Shown piece after piece: positions 7,407-19,015 of a stretch of 64,000 nt of DNA (position 1 is the stretch's first letter; the number at the start of each line of letters is the position of its first letter). This DNA comes from Albula goreensis. Its lineage: Eukaryota > Chordata > Actinopteri > Albuliformes > Albulidae. The position numbers and the translations under genes are program-made. Below the pieces are notes generated by a model. The model was given only the letters and a program-made list of their open reading frames with translations, was not told the DNA's origin and did not search any database. Location of the stretch: the NCBI GenBank assembly GCA_022829145.1, contig CM040744.1:3005001-3069000 (forward strand), in the 5' to 3' direction.

Positions 7407-7506
7407 CTTTGATTCCAAACTTAGAGTTTCTTCCAAATTTGAGGATGATCAACATCAGAACAAATCCAGTAAATGCCACAGCTGCGATTCCCACCACCAC
7501 GTAAAC
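7407..7506 (-). CDS. ntrk2: ntrk2 transmembrane exon
   Basis: A 100-nt exon encoding [20 protein letters not shown] followed by [12 protein letters not shown]: one membrane helix and the basic stop-transfer, as in human VYAVVVIAS...ARHSKFGMK. Acceptor TTGATAG, donor GTAAGT at 7401-7406. It ends in phase 1, as the human exon does before the full-length/T1 isoform choice. Confidence 0.95.
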
Positions 7507-10500
7507 CTATCAAAACAGGAAACACCACTCAAAAAACCGCCATGGCCAATCACATCATTCTGTATCTATTTGTGTCCCCCATGCTGGCAGAGCGAGAGCC
7601 AATCACTGCTCTGTGTGTTGAGTCATGCCCCACATACTGGCAGTGTGACAGCCAGTCATTTATCTGTGTTTTGATTAGTGTCACACATATTGACACTGCC
7701 ATAGCCAATCACATTGCCTATTGATTAGTGTCTTGAATATTGGCATCTTGATAGCCAGTCATTGGTCTGTCTGTTGCTTAGTATCCTGCCTCTGACACTG
7801 ATAGCCAATCCCAGATCTGTGTATTATTCAGACTCACACACTCTCTATGTTGATTACTATAACTTATGATAACACTGCAACAGCCAATAGCATCTGTGTG
7901 TACTGATTACTATTTATATAATAGCCAATGTCTCCAGAGTAGCCTGAAGGTTCTGTGGCCCTGCCCCCTGCTACTGGCTGTGCCCCCTGACCCCACCCTC
8001 TGCAAAATTACACTGCCACTCACTGCAGCACTGTCCTCTTGGTCCAAGGGTGTATCCTCTGTTTTTTTGAGGAGAAAAAAAGAAAAAAAAAAACAGAAAA
8101 TTACTGGTTTAAATTACTCATATAATCCTGTGTAACCCATTCATTGAATTAACTAAGGCCTAAGCCTAAGGCAGGTACATAACACAGAGACACTCACCTG
8201 CCTAAGGCAGGTACATAACACAGAGACACTTACCTGCCTAAGGCAGGTACATAACACAGAGACACTCACCTGCCTAAGGCAGGTACATAACACAGAGACA
8301 CTTACCTGCCTAAGGCAGGTACATAACACAGAGACACTTACCTGCCTAAGGCAGGTACATAACACAGAGACACTCACCTGCTTAAGGCAGGTACATAACA
8401 CAGAGACACTCACCTGCCTAAGGCAGGTACATAACACAGAGACACTCACCTGCCTAAGGCAGGTACATAACACAGAGACACTCACCTGCCTAAGGCAGGT
8501 ACATAACACAGAGACACTTACCTGTGGTGGGATCTGGGCAGCACAGAGGGTGCAGCATTGATAGGAGACAGAATAAGAGAATTTTTAGGTAATTAAACAA
8601 GTTTTGGGTTTAATCCAATATGGTAAACCCAGTATGCCACTTTAACCCATGCTTCTCACATTGCAAACCCGGTGCAGTTTATCTTCAACTGTTTATACAA
8701 TGAATTAGGGGTAACATGAGTAATAAAAGCAAATATTGGGCTCATGTTTTTAATTCCTGAGGAGTTAACTCATAATGTGTTAATGGAGACACTCACCGTA
8801 GTACAGAGGATCTGTTGATGATCCATCTACAGAGAAAACATAAACAAAAGCTCATGTAGTATACTTCAGAACGTTTTTTGCCTTCTCACAAAAGCAGATT
8901 CCCAAATACCGTGTAACACCGGTAACACCGACTACCGCGGCAAGCCTACTGCTGTGTTCCCGTGAAAAACTCACTTTCCCATGGTTCCTTCATGAAGTGG
9001 GAGAAGATGGTTTTCTGGTCCTGGCCGTACTGATTCCTGGCCACCAGGGTGTAATGGCCGTTGTTGACGTGTGTGGGGTTGTCGAGCTGCAGGCAGCCGT
9101 GGTACTCATTTTCGGTGGTGGCGTGGATCTGGGTGTTGATGTAGTCGCCCTCTGGGAGGTCGTTGCCGTTGAACAGCCATTGGAGCTTGGGCTGAGGGTT
9201 TCCCGCCACGCTGAATGGGATGCACCAGTGGTGGTCCGCCACGGCGTCCATCAGCTTAGTGATCTCCGGGGCAACTACAGAACGGAGCGGGGAACGGGGG
9301 GGAGAGGAACAGGTGACCTGAGGGAACTACAACAAGGAATAAGCGGAACAGGTGACCTATGGCGGGAAGAGGAAGAGGATGAGGAACAAACTACAATAGA
9401 GAGGACAAAAGGAGGATGAAGACAAACAGGTAACCTCTGGAGGAGGAACCACAGCAAGGAGCAGGGAGTGAAGAGGAAGAGGGTCAGTCACACCCTCCTG
9501 TGAACATTCACCAGTACAACTGGCTGTATTAAATCACTTGAACGAGAGATGTAAACCCTGTTTAACCTGTGTTTCTGGAGTGAGACACACCCTGTGTAAC
9601 CTGTGTTTCTGGAGTGAGACACGCCCTGTGTAACCTGTGTTTCTGGAGAGAGACACGCCCTGTGTAACCTGTGTTTCTGGAGTGAGACACGCCCTGTGTA
9701 ACCTGTGTTTCTGGAGTGAGACGCGCCCTGTGTAACCTGTGTTTCTGGAGTGAGACACGCCCTGTGTAACCTGTGTTTCTGGAGTGAGACGCGCCCTGTG
9801 TAACCTGTGTTTCTGGAGTGAGACACGCCCTGTGTAACCTGTGTTTCTGGAGTGAGACACACCCTGTGTAACCTGTGTTTCTGGAGAGAGACACACCCTG
9901 TGTAACCTGTGTTTCTGGAGAGAGACACGCCCTGTGTAACCTGTGTTTCTGGAGTGAGACACGCCCTGTGTAACCTGTGTTTCTGGAGTGAGACGCGCCC
10001 TGTGTAACCTGTGTTTCTGGAGTGAGACACGCCCTGTGTAACCTGTGTTTCTGGAGTGAGACGCGCCCTGTGTAACCTGTGTTTCTGGAGTGAGACACGC
10101 CCTGTGTAACCTGTGTTTCTGGAGTGAGACGCGCCCTGTGTAACCTGTGTTTCTGGAGTGAGACATGCCCTGTGTAACCTGTGTTTCTGGAGTGAGAGAG
10201 ACCTTGTGTTTCTGGAGTGAGACACGCCCTGTGTAACCTGTGTTTCTGGAGTGAGAGAGACTTACACTGAATGTCCAGGATGGCAGAGGAGGAGTTTTCC
10301 CCGACAGTGTTCTCGGCAGTGCAGGACACGCTGCGGCCGCTGTCACTGGAGGAAAGGTTACTGAGCCGCAGCTCTGAGGTCAGACCTGAGGTGTTCACCT
10401 GCAGGACAGACAGAACCACCTGTATATCACACACAACGCCCTGTACAGCACACACACCAAGCATTTACCTGCAGGACAGATAAAACGCCCTGCATACCAT

Positions 10501-13500
10501 ACAACATCATAGTAGTCCTGGTGTCAGTGTTATGTTGTGGAGCAGTGCTGGTGTCAGTGTTACTGTAAGTGTTATTTTATGGAATAGTTCTAGTATCAAT
10601 GTTAATTTATGGAGTAGTGCTGGTGTCAGTGTTACTGTAGGCTGTAGTGCTGGTGTCAGTGTTACCTTGTAGTAGGAGAAGAGCGTGCTGAGGTTCCACT
10701 GTAGCTGGGGAGTGGGTGAGCCTGAGGTCTGGCACACCAGAGCGGCGCTCTCCCCCTCCAGCCTGGTAATGATGGAGGGGCTGACCTTCACCATTGGAAT
10801 GACTGAGAACAGAGAAACACACTAATTCAGCACAAACTCAGCACAAACTCCACACAAACTCAACACAAAGTACACACTAACTCAGCACAAACTCAGCACA
10901 AACTCCACACAAACTCAACACAAAGTACACACTAACTCAGCACAAACTCTACACTAACTTAGCACAAACTCCACACTAACTCAGCACAAACTCCACACTA
11001 AATCAACACGATCTCAGCACAAACACCACACTAACTCAGTACAAACTCAGCACAAACTCCACACTAACTCAGCACTAACTCAGCTCAAACTCCACACTAA
11101 CTCAGAACTAACTCAGCTCAAACTCCACACTAACTCTCTCTGCTATAAGCCTGGTGAAAGCAGTGCAGTTCAGAGTGATAGTGCCAGGTTTACACCTCTC
11201 TGCTATAAGCCTGGTGAAAGCAGTGCAGTTCAGAGTGATAGTGCCAGGTTTATACCTCTCTGCTATAAGCCTGGTGAAAGCAGTGCAGTTCAGAGTGATA
11301 GTGCCAGGTTTATACCTCTCTGATGTAAGCCTGGTGAAAGCAGTGCAGTTCAGAGTGACAGTGCCAGGTTTATACCTCTCTGCTGTAAGCCTGGTTAAAG
11401 CAGTGCAGTTCCCGGCAGTATAAACCTGTCCACATTTGGGAAGAGTCCAGTCAAATATTTACCTCACCATACAAGGCGGATGTGTATCACAAACGGCGCT
11501 CTGACTGGCCCTGTCCCTGCCATGGCTGTCACTGTGACAGTAAGTGCAGCTGCAGACGGTAACACCAGAATGTCCTGAGATCTCTCCAGGTCTCACTGTC
11601 TGAGTCTCTAAAACTAACGCGACCCAAAAACCCTGGAGACCCTCTCAGAGACAGAGCTGTGCTCAAACCATGGCCGGGGGAGAGGGAGAGAGACCAGCCC
11701 CGCTCTGCACCTGGGCAGATGCACTTTAACCTTGGGCCTGACCTTGGGCCCGAGGGCCGGGGGATGGGAAGCTGATCCCAGGTCAGTCTGAGCAGCCCTG
11801 ATGAAGGTTTTATTCCCCAGGGCAGGGTGACCCCAGACCCACGCCTGCCCCTCAGCCGCTGCATGTGCAGCTTCAGTAAGGCCAGTTAGTGAGGTGATCC
11901 AAATAGATCTCTCCGCACAGCTAGTCTCCAACTCCACACACCTGCCTGTGACTCCACACACCTTCCTGTGACTCCACACACCTTCCTGTGACTCCTCACA
12001 CCTGCCTGTGACTCTACACACCTGCCTGTGACTCCACACACCTTCCTGCTTCTCTCCCCAAAGTCTAATTCATCTAAACCTAAAACCGGTTACACACCTG
12101 ATAAAAACAGAGAAATAAGTTATATGTGGATGAGCATGTGTGAGTGTGTGTTTGTCTCTCTGTCAGTCTGTCTGTGAGCATGTATATGTCAAATATTTAG
12201 CCTGGCTTTACCATTTTGGATTGCATATTTGTGTCCAAGTGATGTGGACTCCAAAACTAAACTTACAGCTTAATACTCATATTCAAAGGCAAAAAAAACC
12301 CAAGTGTGTAGAGCACCCCCACTCTGGACCAATCATTACGCAGCCAGATTATCTGATCTCGACCAATCATCACATAGCCAGAGAGGATCTGATCAGGACC
12401 AATCACCACTCAGCTGGACGTATGGAGGAGGAGCACCAAGCTTCAATGAATTTTCAACCAATCAAATGAGCGTATCCTCTTTAAGGGCTTTTGCTATGAA
12501 AGAGCACATTCCAAACGAAACACTAGCTTGTCTTCCATAAAACAGAGGATGCTGAAGAGAACTTATGTTATACTGTAAAAGTCTGTTTTGACTGAATGCC
12601 TGAAAGACCCCAAAGAGGTCACGCTTGTTTGAATAAACCCAGGCCTTATTCTTTTGACTCAAATACTTCCACAAGTTAGTCACATTTTGGTAATTCTATC
12701 CTCAAAAAAATCTGATAAAATATTGTGAAAATAAACAAAAACTTTTAATTTCTGTTTATAATTTAGTATAATTTTTGTCATGGAAATGTAAAAGTAATTA
12801 ATGTACCTACAGACAGTCGCTCACCAACATTACACTTTATGCCACTGTAGATGAGACTCAGATGAATAATATTTTACCAAATAATATATAAATAATATAT
12901 TTTACTAAACTTAATATTTCTGTAAATAGCCATATCCAAATATTAACGCTAACTCAAGGGTGACCAAAAATCTAAACAAAAATGTGACCAAAATCATATT
13001 TTTTTTGTGAGGACATTTGATTTGATTTGATAATTAGATTTTGAGAACTCTTTCTGCAAGATGTTGTTAGAGTTCTGAACTTCTCTGCTCCAGAAATATT
13101 TCATTTGCACCAGTGTTATGAATTTTAAGGCTAATCGTTAGCTGTAAATAAATCATGTCATATTCCAAAATGTATCTGTAAATGGATATAATGTTTAATC
13201 AAGGTGAGCGCACATAGCATTAGCATCTAGCAAGCTGACTGGCAATTCTTTTTTCATTTGTTTGTACCAAGACATGAGTTTCCAGTACCGATTTTTAGTC
13301 ATCATATTTTTCACTCCAACTTCCCAGAGAAACGTTGTTACTTTCATTCTTATTGTAAAGAATTTAAATTCTCCTCATAGTTATTGGTGACTGAATTATT
13401 CTTTGTTTATTTTCATCATTATTTTGTTGATTTTTGTTTGTCATTTTTGTTGAGGTTTGTTAAATCACCTCTGTTTGATTTCAAGTTTTTAATTTGTAAG

Positions 13501-16500
13501 CCTGTGTAGGACTTTTCTGCAGTGCAAACACAAGAGAAACAGGCGCCCTGTATTTCAGATAAAAGGACTGAGGACAGGCTTAGGACTGAATGAAGAAAGG
13601 TGAGGGCCAAAAGTGAGAGGGGAGAAAGGGCAGGGGCTTGTGGGCCATGGGAGGGGCAGAGGGAGGAGTTAATTTTTCAGTAGGAGGGGTAAGGGTTTGT
13701 ATATGATGTATGGGAGGGGTTGTGTGGGTAATAAGGGAGGGATATGGGGAGGGTTTTATGATGAGAGAGGCGGGGCATGATTATGAGAGGGGAAGGGCAT
13801 GGGGAGTGGTTTGATGGCAAAAAGGGAGCACCAATAGAAGGGGTGTGAGGGGAAAAGGGGCGGGGTTTTAGCGTGAGAGGGGAGGAGCTCAGGGAGGTTA
13901 CCGCATTCGGGGAGGGTGAGTTTATGCAGCGGCTGGCTCTGGCCCCGGTCGTCCACACACTCCAGGTCCTGCCGCTCTGACTCCTCCCCCAACCACTGCC
14001 TGATCCAGAGGTTCTCACAGCGACACTGTAAGGGGTTACCTGAGAGGAGCCTGTGGAGCACGGACACTCAGTTACACACTTACACACACGCATACACATG
14101 AACACACTCACTAACACAGACACACAGTTACACACACTTACACACACACACGCTCACTAACACAGACGCACAGTTACACACTTACACAACACACTAACAC
14201 GCTCACTAAGACAGACGCACAGTTACACACTTACACACACACACACACTACACACTAACACACTCACTAACACAGACGCACAGTTACACACTTACACACA
14301 CACATGCAACACACACTAACACACTCACTAAGACAGACGCACAGTTACACACTTACACACACACACTAACACGCTCACTAAGACAGACACACAGTTACAC
14401 ACTTACACACACACACAGACAATAACACGCTCACTAAGACAGACGCACAGTTACACACTTACACACACACACACACACTAACACATAAGACAGACGCACA
14501 GTTACACACTTACACACACACACACTACACACTAAGACAGACGCACAGTTACACACTTACACACACTAACACAGATGCACAGTTACACACACACAGCTAC
14601 ACACTTCACTAACACAGATGCACAGTTACACACTTACACACACAGCTACACACTAACACACTCACTAACACAGATGCACAGTTACACAACACACTACACA
14701 CTAACACACTCACTAACACAGATGCACACACTAACACAGATGCACAGTTACACACTTACACACACACGCAACTACACACTAACACACTCACTAAGACAGA
14801 CGCACAGTTACACACTTACACACACTAACACAGACGCACAGTTACACACTTACACACACACAGCTACACACTAACACACTCACTAACACAGATGCACAGT
14901 TACACACTTACACACACACAACTACACACCAACACACTCAATAACACAGATGCACAGTTACACACTTACACACACATGCAACTACACACGAACACACTCA
15001 CTAACACAGATGCACACACAACTACACACTAACACACTCACTAACACAGATGCACACACAACTACACACTCACTAACCCAGATGCACAGTTACACACTTA
15101 CACACACACCTACAGACTGACACACTCACGAACACAGATGCACAGTTACGTACTTACACATTAACACACACACAACTACATACTAACGCACTCACTACAC
15201 ATATGCAGTTACACACACTAACACACACTCACAATTACACACTAACACATTTGCACAGTTACACACACACACATACACACACACACAACTGCACACTAGC
15301 ACACTCACTAACACATACACACAGTTACACACACACACTAACAAACAGTAACACAGACACATAGTTACATACACACAAACACATGTGCACAGTTACAGGC
15401 TTACACACTAACGCAAACAAACTGTACACTAACACACTCACTAACACAGACGCTCAGTTACACACTTACACACAGCCGTGCACACACTCCATACATACAG
15501 CACTACATAGTCTCACATACGCACAGTTACACACACACACAACATTACACAACCTGTACAAATGCACACAGTTACATACTATCATACGCACACATATGCA
15601 ATGCTACAGACTAACCTACTCATACACACAAATGCGCAATTACACATTATCACAGTAACAAGCACAGTAACGTATACACAGAGTAATACAAATGCGCACA
15701 AACACACACATACGCAGAGTACGACACTTAAACAGCATTCCTCAAACACACCCAATAACAGCCTGCAGCAAGAAACAGAGTCTGCATTACACACTAACGT
15801 ACACAGTTATACAAACACACCAACTCGTCCTTTGTAAAGAATAACCGCCCAACACACTGTTTAATTCATAGTTACTGTATCTCTGATTTACGTGTTTAAA
15901 GTAATCTCAAAGTCCTCTTGTCTCTCAGCTAAGCATCAAATATAATATATTTTAAACCAGTCTATGGCTGAAAGACTACATTTAAAACCAATCTGTATTT
16001 AAGCCAATCCTTTTACAGCAGGCATGTGAGACGCTGCTACTAGCTTAATACACAGAGAGACCGAGCGTCCCGAACAGAGTGTGAATAGCGTGATTTGGGG
16101 AGACAGACTTACGGAAATGAAATGTTTAAATGCCTCATGCTCTTCCAGGACAGGAAGGCTATCTTGTTGTCTTTTAAATTCCTGCAATTTCAAAATATAA
16201 TTATTAGAGCAGACTCATTATTATATCAGAAACTGTGCCTACGTTAAGCCCCTGCAAAATAAAAAGTGATGAATTGGTTTATTGATTGATTGATTCGTAC
16301 ATTTGGTGCCATCCTGTTTTTCATTCTAATGTGCCTTGCTAAGCTAAACAGATTCTCCATTTCCAGACTTTTTAGTACTTCAGTACGAAACACAATTTCA
16401 CATAAAACTTCTTCCACAGATAATAAAATAACAGCTATTCAACCACGGAGGTTGATAGCTAACAGACTACCACAACATTGTCTGCACATAAATTAAATAA

Positions 16501-19015
16501 GCACAAAAAAAGGGCATGCTGAAATACAGGTATATATTGATATATTTTCTCTTAAATCACTTCCTGTCCAGTAAAATATATGTTTGTGTTTTCACATTTC
16601 TACATTTGAAATACATAAACATTACTTACAAATACTGGATCTTCCCATTGTTATGAAATGCCATATCAGATATATTGGTCAGTCTAGTATTTGTCACAGT
16701 TCTGTGAGAAGGGAAAGTAAATTTAATAGAGTTATTTATTGGCATTTGTGCTCTGGTACCCATCACTAATACACACTCAAATCACCAAAAATCAGAAACA
16801 AAATGTCACACTTACAAATTTCTGAGGTTCCTGTAGAATCTCAGGTCCCAGTCATTGATAGCAAATAATCTATCCTGATTTTCAATGTATCTGTCAAAAT
16901 TAAATATTAAAATAAAGCAGTAATAAGTTAAGATACACTCAATAATAATAACAATAGTAATAATAATAATAACAATATGCTGTTGTTTTTGTTATTGTTG
17001 TAAAAAAAGATTTTCTGCATATAGCTACATACTATTGTGTTACTACTTCTGTACAAAACAGAAGATGTTAAATTATGTCAAATATGGTTTAGTTGATAAA
17101 CTGAAACGGAATGTATGATCGTTGTTTTATGATAATGAATAGTTTGTAATCCGATTATCTAGGCCTACCTTTTATTTAACTCCACACCTCACCTCACAGT
17201 AAAGAGGGACACAGGATAAATGGTGAATATCGGTTAAAGAGCAAACGGAATTTCAATTCGTTAAAGCCGTGTAGAATGAATGCCGTCGCGCAGCACCGAG
17301 ACAGGTGTTCGCACAGAATGCGCTCACAACATCCAAGACGTGTATCTCTCTCAACAGGGATTACTGACTGCCTGTTATTACCGCCGATTATTGACAGAAG
17401 TCATTGTTTTGTCTGTTTACGAATTGTATATATTGTCATTTTTAACGGAATTGGTCCCTCTGATTTGCACCCGAGCTGGTAGTTTTGATGTAGGCTAACA
17501 GCCTGCCGAGTGCACGACATGACGCTTCTGTCTACATCAGCGACATCGACTCATCCTTATACATGCTCAAGAAGAACATACCGTGTTAAGAATATGATTA
17601 AGTAGTAGGCAATCTAAAAACTTGAGCTGGCCGAGGACATTTACCATGAAATGTATGTAATAATAGCAAGGCGGCCAATTGGTTGTGTAGTTCAGAAACA
17701 TAATGAATCGTCAAATGAGAGGTCACCAATTTCGCAGACGAATGGCACAGAATACAACTACAGAATACTGACTAAGCCTACGTCATAGCGTGCAAAAGTT
17801 TGATGATTGTTTGTATGTGTGTATGTTTGTATGTTGGGGGAGGGGGTCAACAAACAAAACAACCTAAATTCTAATTGTGTTGCCTAGCAGACGACGGCAC
17901 CCCCATTCTGAGTCTGCGGTGTAAAAATTATTTCAGCGAGTCTCACCCTCCCCTCACGCGAAACATTCCATCTTACTGCGTCTATTTTAAAAACACAACT
18001 GGGCTACCTACCCTCACACCGCTCCAAAAAACATACACGGTTCCCAAAGCGAGCCAATTCTGTGGATTCACGAGTCGGAATTGATGCATGATTTAACCGT
18101 TGGTTGTTGCTCCTTCGGTTTCTTGCGTACTATAAATGATCTTACTCCACCAAGAGCATCTATGCATTATCATATTAGCAAAAATTCTCCTTTTCGCTGA
18201 ACGACTTGGTGGTCGTATGAATCTCTACGACCCACCTTCAAAATAGGCTATACCACATCGATGTACATGGTATTTAAATGTATTATAAATCATGACTACA
18301 TTTCCAATGGTACAGACTGTCACCCAGCGTTAATGTAGACGTCTGAGATGATCAGGAAACTATACCGCTACACGTCGTTTCGCCATTGGTATCGATGATC
18401 CTGTTTATGTCGCTTAATGATGTGTTCCACGAATATTGATAATTCCATTGAACAATTATTGGCAATCCTATTGAATGATTGCTTGCAACCCTGTTGAATT
18501 TTCACTGTAATTATTTTGAATAATAACACAGTGTGTTTTAAATGTGTAATTGTAACGTTGACTATGATTATTAATATTGGGATTAAATTATTTCAGTAAA
18601 TACTCTGAATAATTATTGATGAGGCAACTGAACGATCTAGAGCGTTCCTCTGGTTTGAATCTGTGTGAACACAGCGTTAAGGTTTATACAAGTCGCTGGT
18701 ACCTCATTGGGAATATGTGTAGAAATTGTATTTAATAATTGTATTTTGCTGTTTAGTATTTTCCACTATGTTTTCATTTGGCACCATATGGATTTTAATG
18801 TATCCCAATACTCACATATCAGTAATCTCATCCATTTTATAGTCGGATTGTAGAAGTGGGAAAGACGTTATCCCTCCGTCCTGATCGATGCATGTGATCC
18901 TCATGTTGGTGCAAGTGCAGGACGCGGGACACGCGGCGCTGAACCTCCAAACACCGAGCAGAACCCAGCACAATCCCCACCGCGCCATTCCGTGGCCCCT
19001 CCACAAGGAGAACAT
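7407..19015 (-). CDS. ntrk2: ntrk2 (TrkB) neurotrophin receptor, extracellular and transmembrane part
   Basis: This gene encodes the receptor tyrosine kinase for BDNF and NT-4 at the neuronal plasma membrane. Eleven coding exons are read on the minus strand: 18816-19015, 16816-16890, 16630-16701, 16113-16181, 13902-14050, 10666-10802, 10266-10398, 8975-9274, 8797-8826, 8522-8533, 8024-8058 and 7407-7506 (the three tiny ones are juxtamembrane). All borders are GT/AG and codon phases join through the whole chain. In order they give a signal peptide, LRR N-cap, leucine-rich repeats, LRR C-cap, two Ig domains, a short stalk and a transmembrane helix. The membrane-proximal Ig domain ([23 protein letters not shown]) matches TrkB far better than TrkA or TrkC. 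The kinase exons and the truncated-isoform exon were not found and should lie left of the window. Counting every listed interval gives twelve exons, eleven if the optional 12-nt microexon is left out. Whether this is the a or b paralogue cannot be told. Confidence 0.95.
7540..7950. repeat. Degenerate about 60-70-bp tandem repeat
   Basis: ATAGCCAATCACAT...TGTGTTGATTAGTGTC...ATTGGCA recurs five to six times with heavy divergence, between the 35-nt and transmembrane exons of ntrk2. Confidence 0.65.
8024..8058 (-). CDS. ntrk2: ntrk2 juxtamembrane 35-nt exon
   Basis: A 35-nt exon encoding [12 protein letters not shown], acidic like the human stalk. Acceptor AAAACAG, donor GTGAGT (8018-8023). It enters in phase 1 and leaves in phase 0, exactly what the phase-0 transmembrane exon needs; without it the preceding exons do not join in frame. 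Confidence 0.7.
8156..8521 (-). repeat. 36-bp minisatellite carrying splice donors
   Basis: About ten copies of a 36-bp unit containing AGGCAGGTACATAACACAGA. On the ntrk2 strand each unit contains CAG|GTRAGTG, a consensus 5' splice site. The first unit begins at the real donor of the 12-nt microexon. Six of the nine extra sites read GTGAGT and three GTAAGT. Copies differ by only one or two bases, so the array is young. Confidence 0.95.
8522..8533 (-). CDS. ntrk2: ntrk2 putative 12-nt microexon
   Basis: ATCCCACCACAG lies between a good acceptor (pyrimidine tract then GCCCAG) and a consensus donor (CAG|GTAAGTG). It adds four residues (DPTT with the split codon) and keeps phase 1, so it can be included or skipped without changing the frame. 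It is placed by splice signals and phase only; there is no homology support. Confidence 0.55.
8797..8826 (-). CDS. ntrk2: ntrk2 juxtamembrane 30-nt exon
   Basis: A 30-nt exon encoding [10 protein letters not shown], comparable to human DDGANPNYPDVIYEDYG. Acceptor TCTGTAG, donor GTGAGTGTCTC, phase 1 on both sides. The donor shares GTRAGTGTCTC with the next microexon's donor. Confidence 0.8.
8975..9274 (-). CDS. ntrk2: ntrk2 second Ig domain, ligand-binding
   Basis: A 300-nt exon encoding [20 protein letters not shown] through [25 protein letters not shown] and [13 protein letters not shown] are near-identical to human TrkB; in the family this membrane-proximal Ig domain binds neurotrophin. 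Acceptor CTGTAG, donor GTGAGT, phase 1 on both sides. Confidence 0.96.
9551..10262 (-). repeat. 34-bp minisatellite at an ntrk2 donor
   Basis: About 21 copies of TGTGTAACCTGTGTTTCTGG plus 14 more bases, exact 34-bp spacing (for example 9592 and 9626). The last copy runs into the donor of exon 10266-10398. All three minus-strand frames stay open for 245-300 codons, because the unit has no stop in any frame; this is not evidence of a protein. Confidence 0.95.
10266..10398 (-). CDS. ntrk2: ntrk2 first Ig domain, C-terminal half
   Basis: A 133-nt exon encoding [20 protein letters not shown], then [15 protein letters not shown], the DSG/YxC-like end of the Ig fold (human [20 protein letters not shown]). 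Acceptor CTGCAG, donor GTAAGT at 10260-10265; phase 0 in, phase 1 out. A 34-bp minisatellite begins at this donor. Confidence 0.94.
10511..10665 (-). repeat. Tandem repeat at the donor of the first Ig exon
   Basis: Imperfect copies of AGTGCTGGTGTCAGTGTTAC, the last of which forms the GTAACACTG donor of exon 10666-10802. Confidence 0.8.
10666..10802 (-). CDS. ntrk2: ntrk2 first Ig domain, N-terminal half
   Basis: A 137-nt exon encoding [20 protein letters not shown], then [15 protein letters not shown] with the Cys and Trp of an Ig fold. Acceptor TCTCAG, donor GTAAC; phase 1 in, phase 0 out. A tandem array starts at the donor. Confidence 0.92.
10825..11130. repeat. About 20-bp tandem repeat
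   Basis: CTCAGCACAAACTCCACACTAA and variants recur about fifteen times just upstream (gene sense) of the first Ig exon's acceptor. Confidence 0.9.
11131..11415. repeat. 60-bp minisatellite, about 4.7 copies
   Basis: CTCTCTGCTATAAGCCTGGT and following bases repeat exactly every 60 bp with few changes. Because 60 is a multiple of three, it holds an open frame by chance. Confidence 0.95.
11931..12050. repeat. 20-bp tandem repeat, about six copies
   Basis: Copies of ACTCCACACACCTTCCTGTG with single-base variants. Confidence 0.85.
12060..13901. other. ntrk2 intron, mostly unique sequence
   Basis: AT-rich unique sequence to about 13600, then GGGAGGGG-rich degenerate sequence to 13890 next to the LRR C-cap donor. 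I see no further feature. Confidence 0.6.
13902..14050 (-). CDS. ntrk2: ntrk2 LRR C-cap exon
   Basis: A 149-nt exon encoding [20 protein letters not shown] and then [19 protein letters not shown], the cysteine-rich LRR C-cap (human ILVGNPFTCSCDIMWIKTL). The CACAG acceptor at 14051-14055 is chosen because the nearer CAG would give an immediate TAA. The donor GTAACC is weak. A long CA-rich array begins just upstream of the acceptor. Confidence 0.92.
14078..15830. repeat. CA-rich compound minisatellite
   Basis: Units such as ACACAGACGCACAGTTACAC plus CACTTACACACACAC and CTAACACACTCACTA recur in changing lengths over 1.7 kb, starting 28 bp from the LRR C-cap acceptor. The array decays towards its right end. 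Confidence 0.92.
16113..16181 (-). CDS. ntrk2: ntrk2 LRR exon 3
   Basis: A 69-nt exon encoding [20 protein letters not shown], one leucine-rich repeat, equivalent to human [20 protein letters not shown]. Acceptor TTGCAG, donor GTAAGT, phase 2 on both sides. Confidence 0.93.
16630..16701 (-). CDS. ntrk2: ntrk2 LRR exon 2
   Basis: A 72-nt exon, one leucine-rich repeat long (24 residues). It encodes [16 protein letters not shown]..., matching human LTIVDSGLKFVAHKAF. Acceptor CTCACAG, donor GTAAGT, phase 2 on both sides. Confidence 0.93.
16816..16890 (-). CDS. ntrk2: ntrk2 LRR exon 1
   Basis: This 75-nt exon lies between acceptor TTTGACAG and donor GTAAGT. It encodes [18 protein letters not shown] and so on, aligning with human FIANQKRLEIINEDDVEAY. 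Phase 2 in and phase 2 out, as for its neighbours. Confidence 0.93.
16891..18815. other. ntrk2 first coding intron
   Basis: AT-rich unique DNA. I see no exon or clear transposon. Confidence 0.6.
18816..19015 (-). CDS. ntrk2: ntrk2 first coding exon: signal peptide and LRR N-cap
   Basis: The start is the ATG at 19013-19015 ([20 protein letters not shown]), which aligns with the human TrkB N-terminus; the frame is open further upstream but only from a TTG codon. A hydrophobic signal peptide is followed by the cysteine cluster [14 protein letters not shown] of the LRR N-cap. The second ATG, 27 nt downstream, also fits a start. The exon ends in phase 2 at donor GTGAGT (18810-18815). Upstream sequence to about 19480 is pyrimidine- and purine-rich and probably 5' UTR. 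Confidence 0.93.

Follow-up and report, generated by a model that had tools for sequence, protein, structure and literature searches.

A minisatellite that begins at the 5' splice site of a 12-nt ntrk2 microexon in Albula goreensis and repeats this site in nine copies with predicted hairpins

The window, that is the whole 64-kb stretch of Albula goreensis DNA analysed here, carries on its minus strand the first 12 exons of a gene that is, by sequence comparison, ntrk2 (TrkB). Further ntrk2 exons were placed using the human TrkB protein, and the model built from them joins 12 exons into 437 codons with no stop among them; the remainder of the gene lies outside the window. The modelled protein contains the LRR part, Ig1, a TrkB-like Ig2 and a membrane segment, and its Ig2 exon (9274-8975) matches the solved TrkB chains 1wwb/1hcf at 3e-41, compared to 1.5e-29 for the best TrkA and 1.6e-20 for TrkC. 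A protein search with model residues 250-437 (188 residues) gave 270 matches, the best 120 of which were listed; among these the top homologs were Aldrovandia affinis (P0001, 84%) and a partial record from Albula glossodonta (P0002, 98% over 83% of the query region), both Elopomorpha, and since several fish matches bear the name ntrk2a, the gene is probably an ntrk2a copy. No convincing kinase-domain match was present within the 64-kb window (best 54027-53863, E 1.1), past whose end the model gene continues, and none of the window's three minus-strand frames contained a T1-type truncation exon (F-V/I/L-L-F-H/Q/N). The features discussed below are the following (a slash within a donor motif marks the exon/intron edge):

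7407..19015, minus strand: ntrk2 gene model, exons 1-12 up to the transmembrane exon, based on AG and GT edges, the open codons, the PDB TrkB match and homologs.
8797..8826, minus strand: exon 9, 30 nt, stalk, phase 1, in-frame skippable, ending PLYY, based on the gene model.
8534..8565, minus strand: microexon acceptor, four TGC triplets in 32 nt, SRRM4-type layout, based on the TGC count.
8522..8533, minus strand: microexon (exon 10) ATCCCACCACAG, encoding DPTT, 12 nt, phase 1, in-frame skippable, based on sequence, gene model and protein stalks.
8515..8524, minus strand: real donor CAG/GTAAGTG, GT at 8521, without the 8-bp hairpin, based on motif and fold analysis.
8165..8524, minus strand: minisatellite of ten 36-bp units, each starting CAG/GTRAGTG, based on TRF and motif search.
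8195..8501, minus strand: nine predicted hairpins UACCUGCC-UUA-GGCAGGUR, each covering CAG/GT of one copy, based on motif, inverted repeats and folding.
8059..8521, minus strand: intron 10, 463 nt, about 357 nt of which are array, based on the gene model.
8024..8058, minus strand: exon 11, 35 nt, stalk, 12 residues, based on the gene model and matched by the Aldrovandia and A. glossodonta proteins.

A first-pass annotation of this DNA had placed a 12-nt ntrk2 microexon next to the minisatellite, and the comparison with other fish indicates that the microexon is probably genuine. On the minus strand, TGCTGCCCAG is followed by the microexon ATCCCACCACAG, whose donor GT is at 8521, then by GTAAGTGTCTCTGTGTTATGTACCTGCCTTAGG and finally by CAGGTGAGTG. 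The exon has the size and frame of neural (SRRM4-type) microexons, which are at most 30 nt, a multiple of 3 and in frame, and its skipping keeps the frame (phase 1 to 1), yielding PLYY-EDTPLDQ without the insert. From the best 120 of the 270 protein matches, 30 teleost-type stalks could be extracted and classed by the residues after YY: 13-15 residues follow in 19 stalks (insert-sized, for example DPTT in Esox and DTTT in Aldrovandia) and 11 in six (insert-less, for example DDTPLG in zebrafish isoform 6), while YY is absent in three and the stretch is longer in two. The presence of a four-residue insert at the same place in 19 of the 30 stalks and its absence from six, an absence that in a protein record could also reflect an annotation fault or a lost exon, argue that the microexon is real and skippable in frame, and the insert seems to be ancient and optional in teleost TrkB. 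The A. glossodonta record, the only Albula-named one among the 120 matches listed, has AQKT in place of DPTT at the microexon; this partial model is of poor quality, being in the wrong frame at its start and running into intron 11, and AQKT can be derived from CCCAG at 8538-8534 and AAAACAG at 8065-8059 of the window. Because the joints needed for this are non-canonical, AQKT is possibly a gene-model artefact.

The microexon acceptor has the highest TGC count among the 11 acceptors of the gene, and its four triplets are equalled in 28 of 9802 intronic 32-mers, a background that excludes intron 10 and includes intron 9 with this acceptor. The SRRM4 layout described for zebrafish microexons in PMC12626420 places UGC motifs near the acceptor; the main text of that paper names neither ntrk nor TrkB (0 matches). 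In its short in-frame exon and its UGC motifs near the acceptor, the ntrk2 site resembles this SRRM4-dependent layout, and neural inclusion of the microexon is putative.

The donor of the microexon is also the first unit of the minisatellite, which includes the last 3 nt of the microexon and which TRF reports at 8164-8524 with period 36, 10.0 copies, 97% matches and a score of 687. The sequence CAGGTRAGTG occurs 11 times in the 64-kb window, and ten of these occurrences lie in the array, on the minus strand and at exact 36-bp steps, compared to a chance expectation of 0.41 and a largest count of 3 in 100 shuffles. That the array is a chance donor-like repeat was rejected on these counts. The units differ from one another at 2 of 36 positions, namely donor position +3 (A in four units, G in six) and position 35 (one unit), and donor positions +1 to +7 accordingly read GTAAGTG in units 1, 6, 7 and 9 and GTGAGTG in the other six. 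The array described in the first-pass annotation, a real donor with nine further copies of CAG/GTRAGTG beside an ntrk2 microexon, is thus recovered by TRF, by the motif steps and by the TrkB match, and its claim that a downstream donor leads to an early stop holds in the gene model for all nine: each adds 36k nt, reads through 10 residues and then meets a stop. Since this stop precedes further exon junctions, NMD would be expected. Such an array was not found in the literature on minisatellite or VNTR splice donors or on NTRK2 microexons, as far as titles and the openings of abstracts tell, mostly from journals outside subscription.

The first-pass annotation had further described the ten donors as near-equal. 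In letters this stands, all ten having a near-perfect U1 match of -12.9 or -13.0 kcal/mol, but it fails for predicted access, since copies 2-10 lie in a hairpin and the real donor does not. Nine hairpin 19-mers are found on the minus strand with starts every 36 bp from 8195 to 8483, one of them with a mismatch; they form 8 bp with a 3-nt loop and hold CAG/GT of copies 2-10 in the 3' arm, the stem being shorter in the one copy with UUAAG. The hairpin was also detected as inverted repeats, with fold energies of -8.9 to -12.9 kcal/mol, and its arm is carried by all nine copies and absent before the real donor. We computed the cost of opening each 9-nt site as a ViennaRNA constrained-ensemble difference at pairing spans of 40, 60, 100 and unlimited. 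In these folding predictions, which take no account of proteins, helicases or kinetics, the real donor within ten units costs 5.5-7.5 kcal/mol and the copies cost 10.7-15.4 kcal/mol over the four span settings, compared to 1.0-6.3 kcal/mol for the other 11 donors of the gene (spans 40, 60 and 100). The nine copies are therefore predicted to be structure-sequestered 5' splice sites, whereas the real donor is only slightly above the other donors, although it is itself not very open, its 7.5 at span 40 exceeding all other 11. At 25 C and span 60 the order is the same (real donor 6.9, copies 12.4-16.9). Given an equal U1 match (about -13) and differing opening costs, net binding would favour the real donor by about 4-10 kcal/mol, varying with copy and setting. 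Window-averaged probabilities give a smaller gap than the opening costs: by the 9-nt measure the real donor ranks first among the ten at windows 60, 80 and 200 and is narrowly exceeded at window 120 by the copy at 8308 (0.0011 for the real donor, 0.0013 for the copy), and by the 6-nt measure it ranks first in all four settings. Because window averaging cuts across the hairpin, we preferred the constrained-ensemble difference.

The predicted gap depends on the bases around the donors. In the main control, the 26 non-donor bases of the unit were permuted in 60 shuffles and ten units were folded with their flanks at span 60. The median opening cost of the copies was 13.5 as observed compared to 5.0 when shuffled (sd 2.3), a value reached by none of the 60 shuffles; the lowest copy cost 11.0 compared to 3.4, and the copies exceeded the real donor by 7.9 compared to -0.05 (sd 2.1), each of these two values being reached by 1 of 60. 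When the arm was broken in silico, the copies fell to 4.3-6.3, close to the real donor (5.5). In a cruder control, which folded five identical units without flanks and scored one middle donor, the cost was 8.5 kcal/mol, a value that 64 of 500 shuffles equalled or exceeded; since the cost of the copies varies with their place in the array and only a single, unflanked copy was used here, the ten-unit control took its place. We also considered that the array might keep the real donor clear of the UACCUG arm that lies downstream of it and rejected this, as opening that donor costs 4.6-7.2 when one unit is present and 5.5-7.5 when there are ten. U1 is limited where RNA structure sequesters a 5' splice site, a mechanism at work in SMN2 exon 7 and tau exon 10 (PMC9311317). 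The ntrk2 copies are like these sites in that they are predicted to be sequestered in a local stem that limits U1, and differ from them in that the predicted sequestration concerns nine additional copies instead of the functional donor.

The array lies in a repeat-rich gene. Arrays cover 3563 of the 11609 bp of the gene body (about 31%), and among the 24 exon edges that were checked, six have an array no more than 40 bp away, two of these six being the microexon's own edges. In intron 4, a complex, GT-rich minus-strand array (14074-15474) has 34 GTRAGT hexamers on the gene strand and ends 23 bp before the exon-5 acceptor. An array of 21 units of 34 bp (9556-10256) fills most of intron 7 and starts 9 bp behind the exon-7 donor, or 4 bp if an overlapping TRF row is counted; the stretch 9556-10265 has 20 CAGGT, but GTRAGT only at the real exon-7 donor. 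Because nearby arrays also contain bare GTRAGT, the letters of a donor do not by themselves point to function, and since arrays are common in the gene and often near exon edges, one that begins at a donor calls for no particular explanation. This richness in arrays and the hairpin around each copy are additions to the first-pass annotation. The whole 64-kb window is likewise repeat-rich, with 71 TRF rows, some of them overlapping.

We consider it reasonably probable that the minisatellite grew from the donor region of the microexon by tandem duplication, that its donors are strong but folded, and that splicing proceeds mostly from 8521 or skips the microexon. This reading starts from what the sequence contains, namely the array, the microexon, the hairpin complementarity, the stop codon and the counterparts of the insert in other fish, and from the computed accessibility gap between the real donor and the copies. 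The repeat would have grown from the 5' splice site of the optional 12-nt ntrk2 stalk exon, and because the repeated segment consists of the last three exon bases (CAG) and the first 33 intron bases, each duplication would have copied a consensus donor. Duplication would also have joined the donor to an intronic stretch (UACCUGCC), whose bases resemble the 5' end of U1 (UACCUG), and so made the hairpin; we infer that it placed GG before CAGGT, which completed the stem. As the 5' arm emerges before the donor during transcription, copies 2-10 would be cloaked cotranscriptionally, whereas the real donor, without an arm ahead, would stay more open. Cells would mostly use the real donor or skip the microexon, and the downstream donors would give at most low-level early-stop transcripts that are destroyed by NMD or yield a soluble ectodomain. 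The array would for the most part be tolerated by the gene, not selected, and would play a small regulatory part or none. A related course is AGGT intron gain, described in PMC4974935, in which a tandem duplication likewise copies AG/GT; the ntrk2 array differs in that the duplicated stretch spans an existing exon/intron edge and the copies lie inside an intron. If the preferred reading is right, it suggests how a gene can tolerate a minisatellite that begins at a donor: one and the same duplication provides the donor copy and the lid over it.

Exon definition is difficult for an exon of 12 nt and would be better served by a 48-120 nt extension, which favours the downstream donors and speaks against the preferred reading. 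The closest precedent is the minisatellite of human IFI6 (6-16, G1P3), which was reportedly described by Turri and colleagues in 1995. Two downstream units of IFI6 are reported to be used, giving three mRNAs (PMC4526556), and this use of downstream repeat donors also counts against our reading. The ntrk2 array is of the same kind in that tandem units, each with a consensus donor in 10 of 10 units, start at the real exon/intron edge, and in both cases the units supply several splice donors, for ntrk2 as deduced from its letters. It differs in its 36-bp unit, the IFI6 unit being 12 bp long and frame-keeping, in the stop that follows downstream use, in the 12-nt microexon and in the hairpin on each copy.

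These points bear on the alternative of a donor-competition switch, in which the downstream donors are used to a meaningful extent and array length or tissue sets the choice between full TrkB and early-stop transcripts. We regard this alternative as unlikely, though still to be reckoned with, and the copy-number splicing switch proposed in the first-pass annotation as possible but unsupported. That all ten donors match U1 equally and that every downstream donor gives a stop after 10 residues would suit a switch, and splicing from a downstream copy would ease the difficulty posed by so small an exon. The copies are, however, hairpin-cloaked in the model, the real donor being easier to open by the 4-10 kcal/mol given above, and it is the usable repeat donors of IFI6 (PMC4526556), together with the weak definition of a 12-nt exon, that keep the switch in consideration.

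A doubtful alternative is that the array acts as a cis-element on microexon inclusion, its UCUCU and UGUGU stretches, decoy U1 binding or a hairpin block altering the recognition of exon 10. TCTCT and TGTGT each occur 10 times in the array, the acceptor is SRRM4-like with its four TGC, and the four residues are present or absent among teleost-type proteins; but the presence of motifs alone is weak evidence, and the opening of the real donor barely depends on the number of units, as the costs with one unit and with ten indicate. We attach little probability to a self-cloaking ladder of donors, in which each unit would carry a strong donor along with its own U1-like antidote, silent when folded and acting as a poison cassette when the hairpins melt. 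If it were true, melting could be brought about by a helicase, by temperature in this ectotherm, by an RNA-binding protein or by a slow polymerase, and would lower TrkB or free a soluble TrkB ectodomain with a 14-residue end, with array length setting the strength, beside a stalk region that in human TrkB has sulfotyrosine and contacts BDNF. Recursive splicing or new introns, in which CCTTAG or GGCAG would serve as acceptors before the next donor (AG/GT) and give zero- or 4-nt exons or proto-introns, are very improbable even though CCTTAG occurs nine times in the array, AGGT lies in every unit and tandem duplication of an AGGT segment is the intron-gain route mentioned above, because 36-nt steps are too short for one intron and acceptor and donor lie within the same hairpin.

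Returning to the preferred reading, in which the folded copies are mostly silent, the locus is a natural test of how splicing chooses among ten donors that have nearly the same U1 match and differ in predicted structure and position. Silent copies would be good evidence that local structure, not letters, sets donor choice at this microexon; if they are used, repeat length could tune a BDNF receptor. In related receptors, an 18-nt juxtamembrane exon (exon 9) of TrkA occurs mainly in neurons, and the protein containing it has stronger NT-3 binding (PMC4652384); chicken TrkB without exon 9 is more BDNF-specific (PMC13228283). The ntrk2 microexon is, like these, a small in-frame stalk exon between Ig2 and the membrane, where inclusion changes neurotrophin selectivity in TrkA and chicken TrkB, and differs in being 12 nt long and in a teleost TrkB gene; by analogy, the effects of the TrkA and chicken TrkB exons suggest that the place of the insert matters.

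Exon 9 of the fish gene (8797-8826) is also tiny and in frame, and its counterpart residues are absent in the Anabarilius grahami protein (P0032). It has YY at its end, followed by an acidic residue, and lies in the region of the human TrkB sulfotyrosine motif; PMC13228283 considers the human sulfotyrosine in this region likely mammal-specific, and sulfation of the exon-9 YY in fish is only a guess by analogy. One non-receptor frame of the array (8165-8524, gene strand) encodes a repeated 12 residues and is open over the 117 nt translated; this frame should stay open throughout, the units being alike and 36 being divisible by 3.
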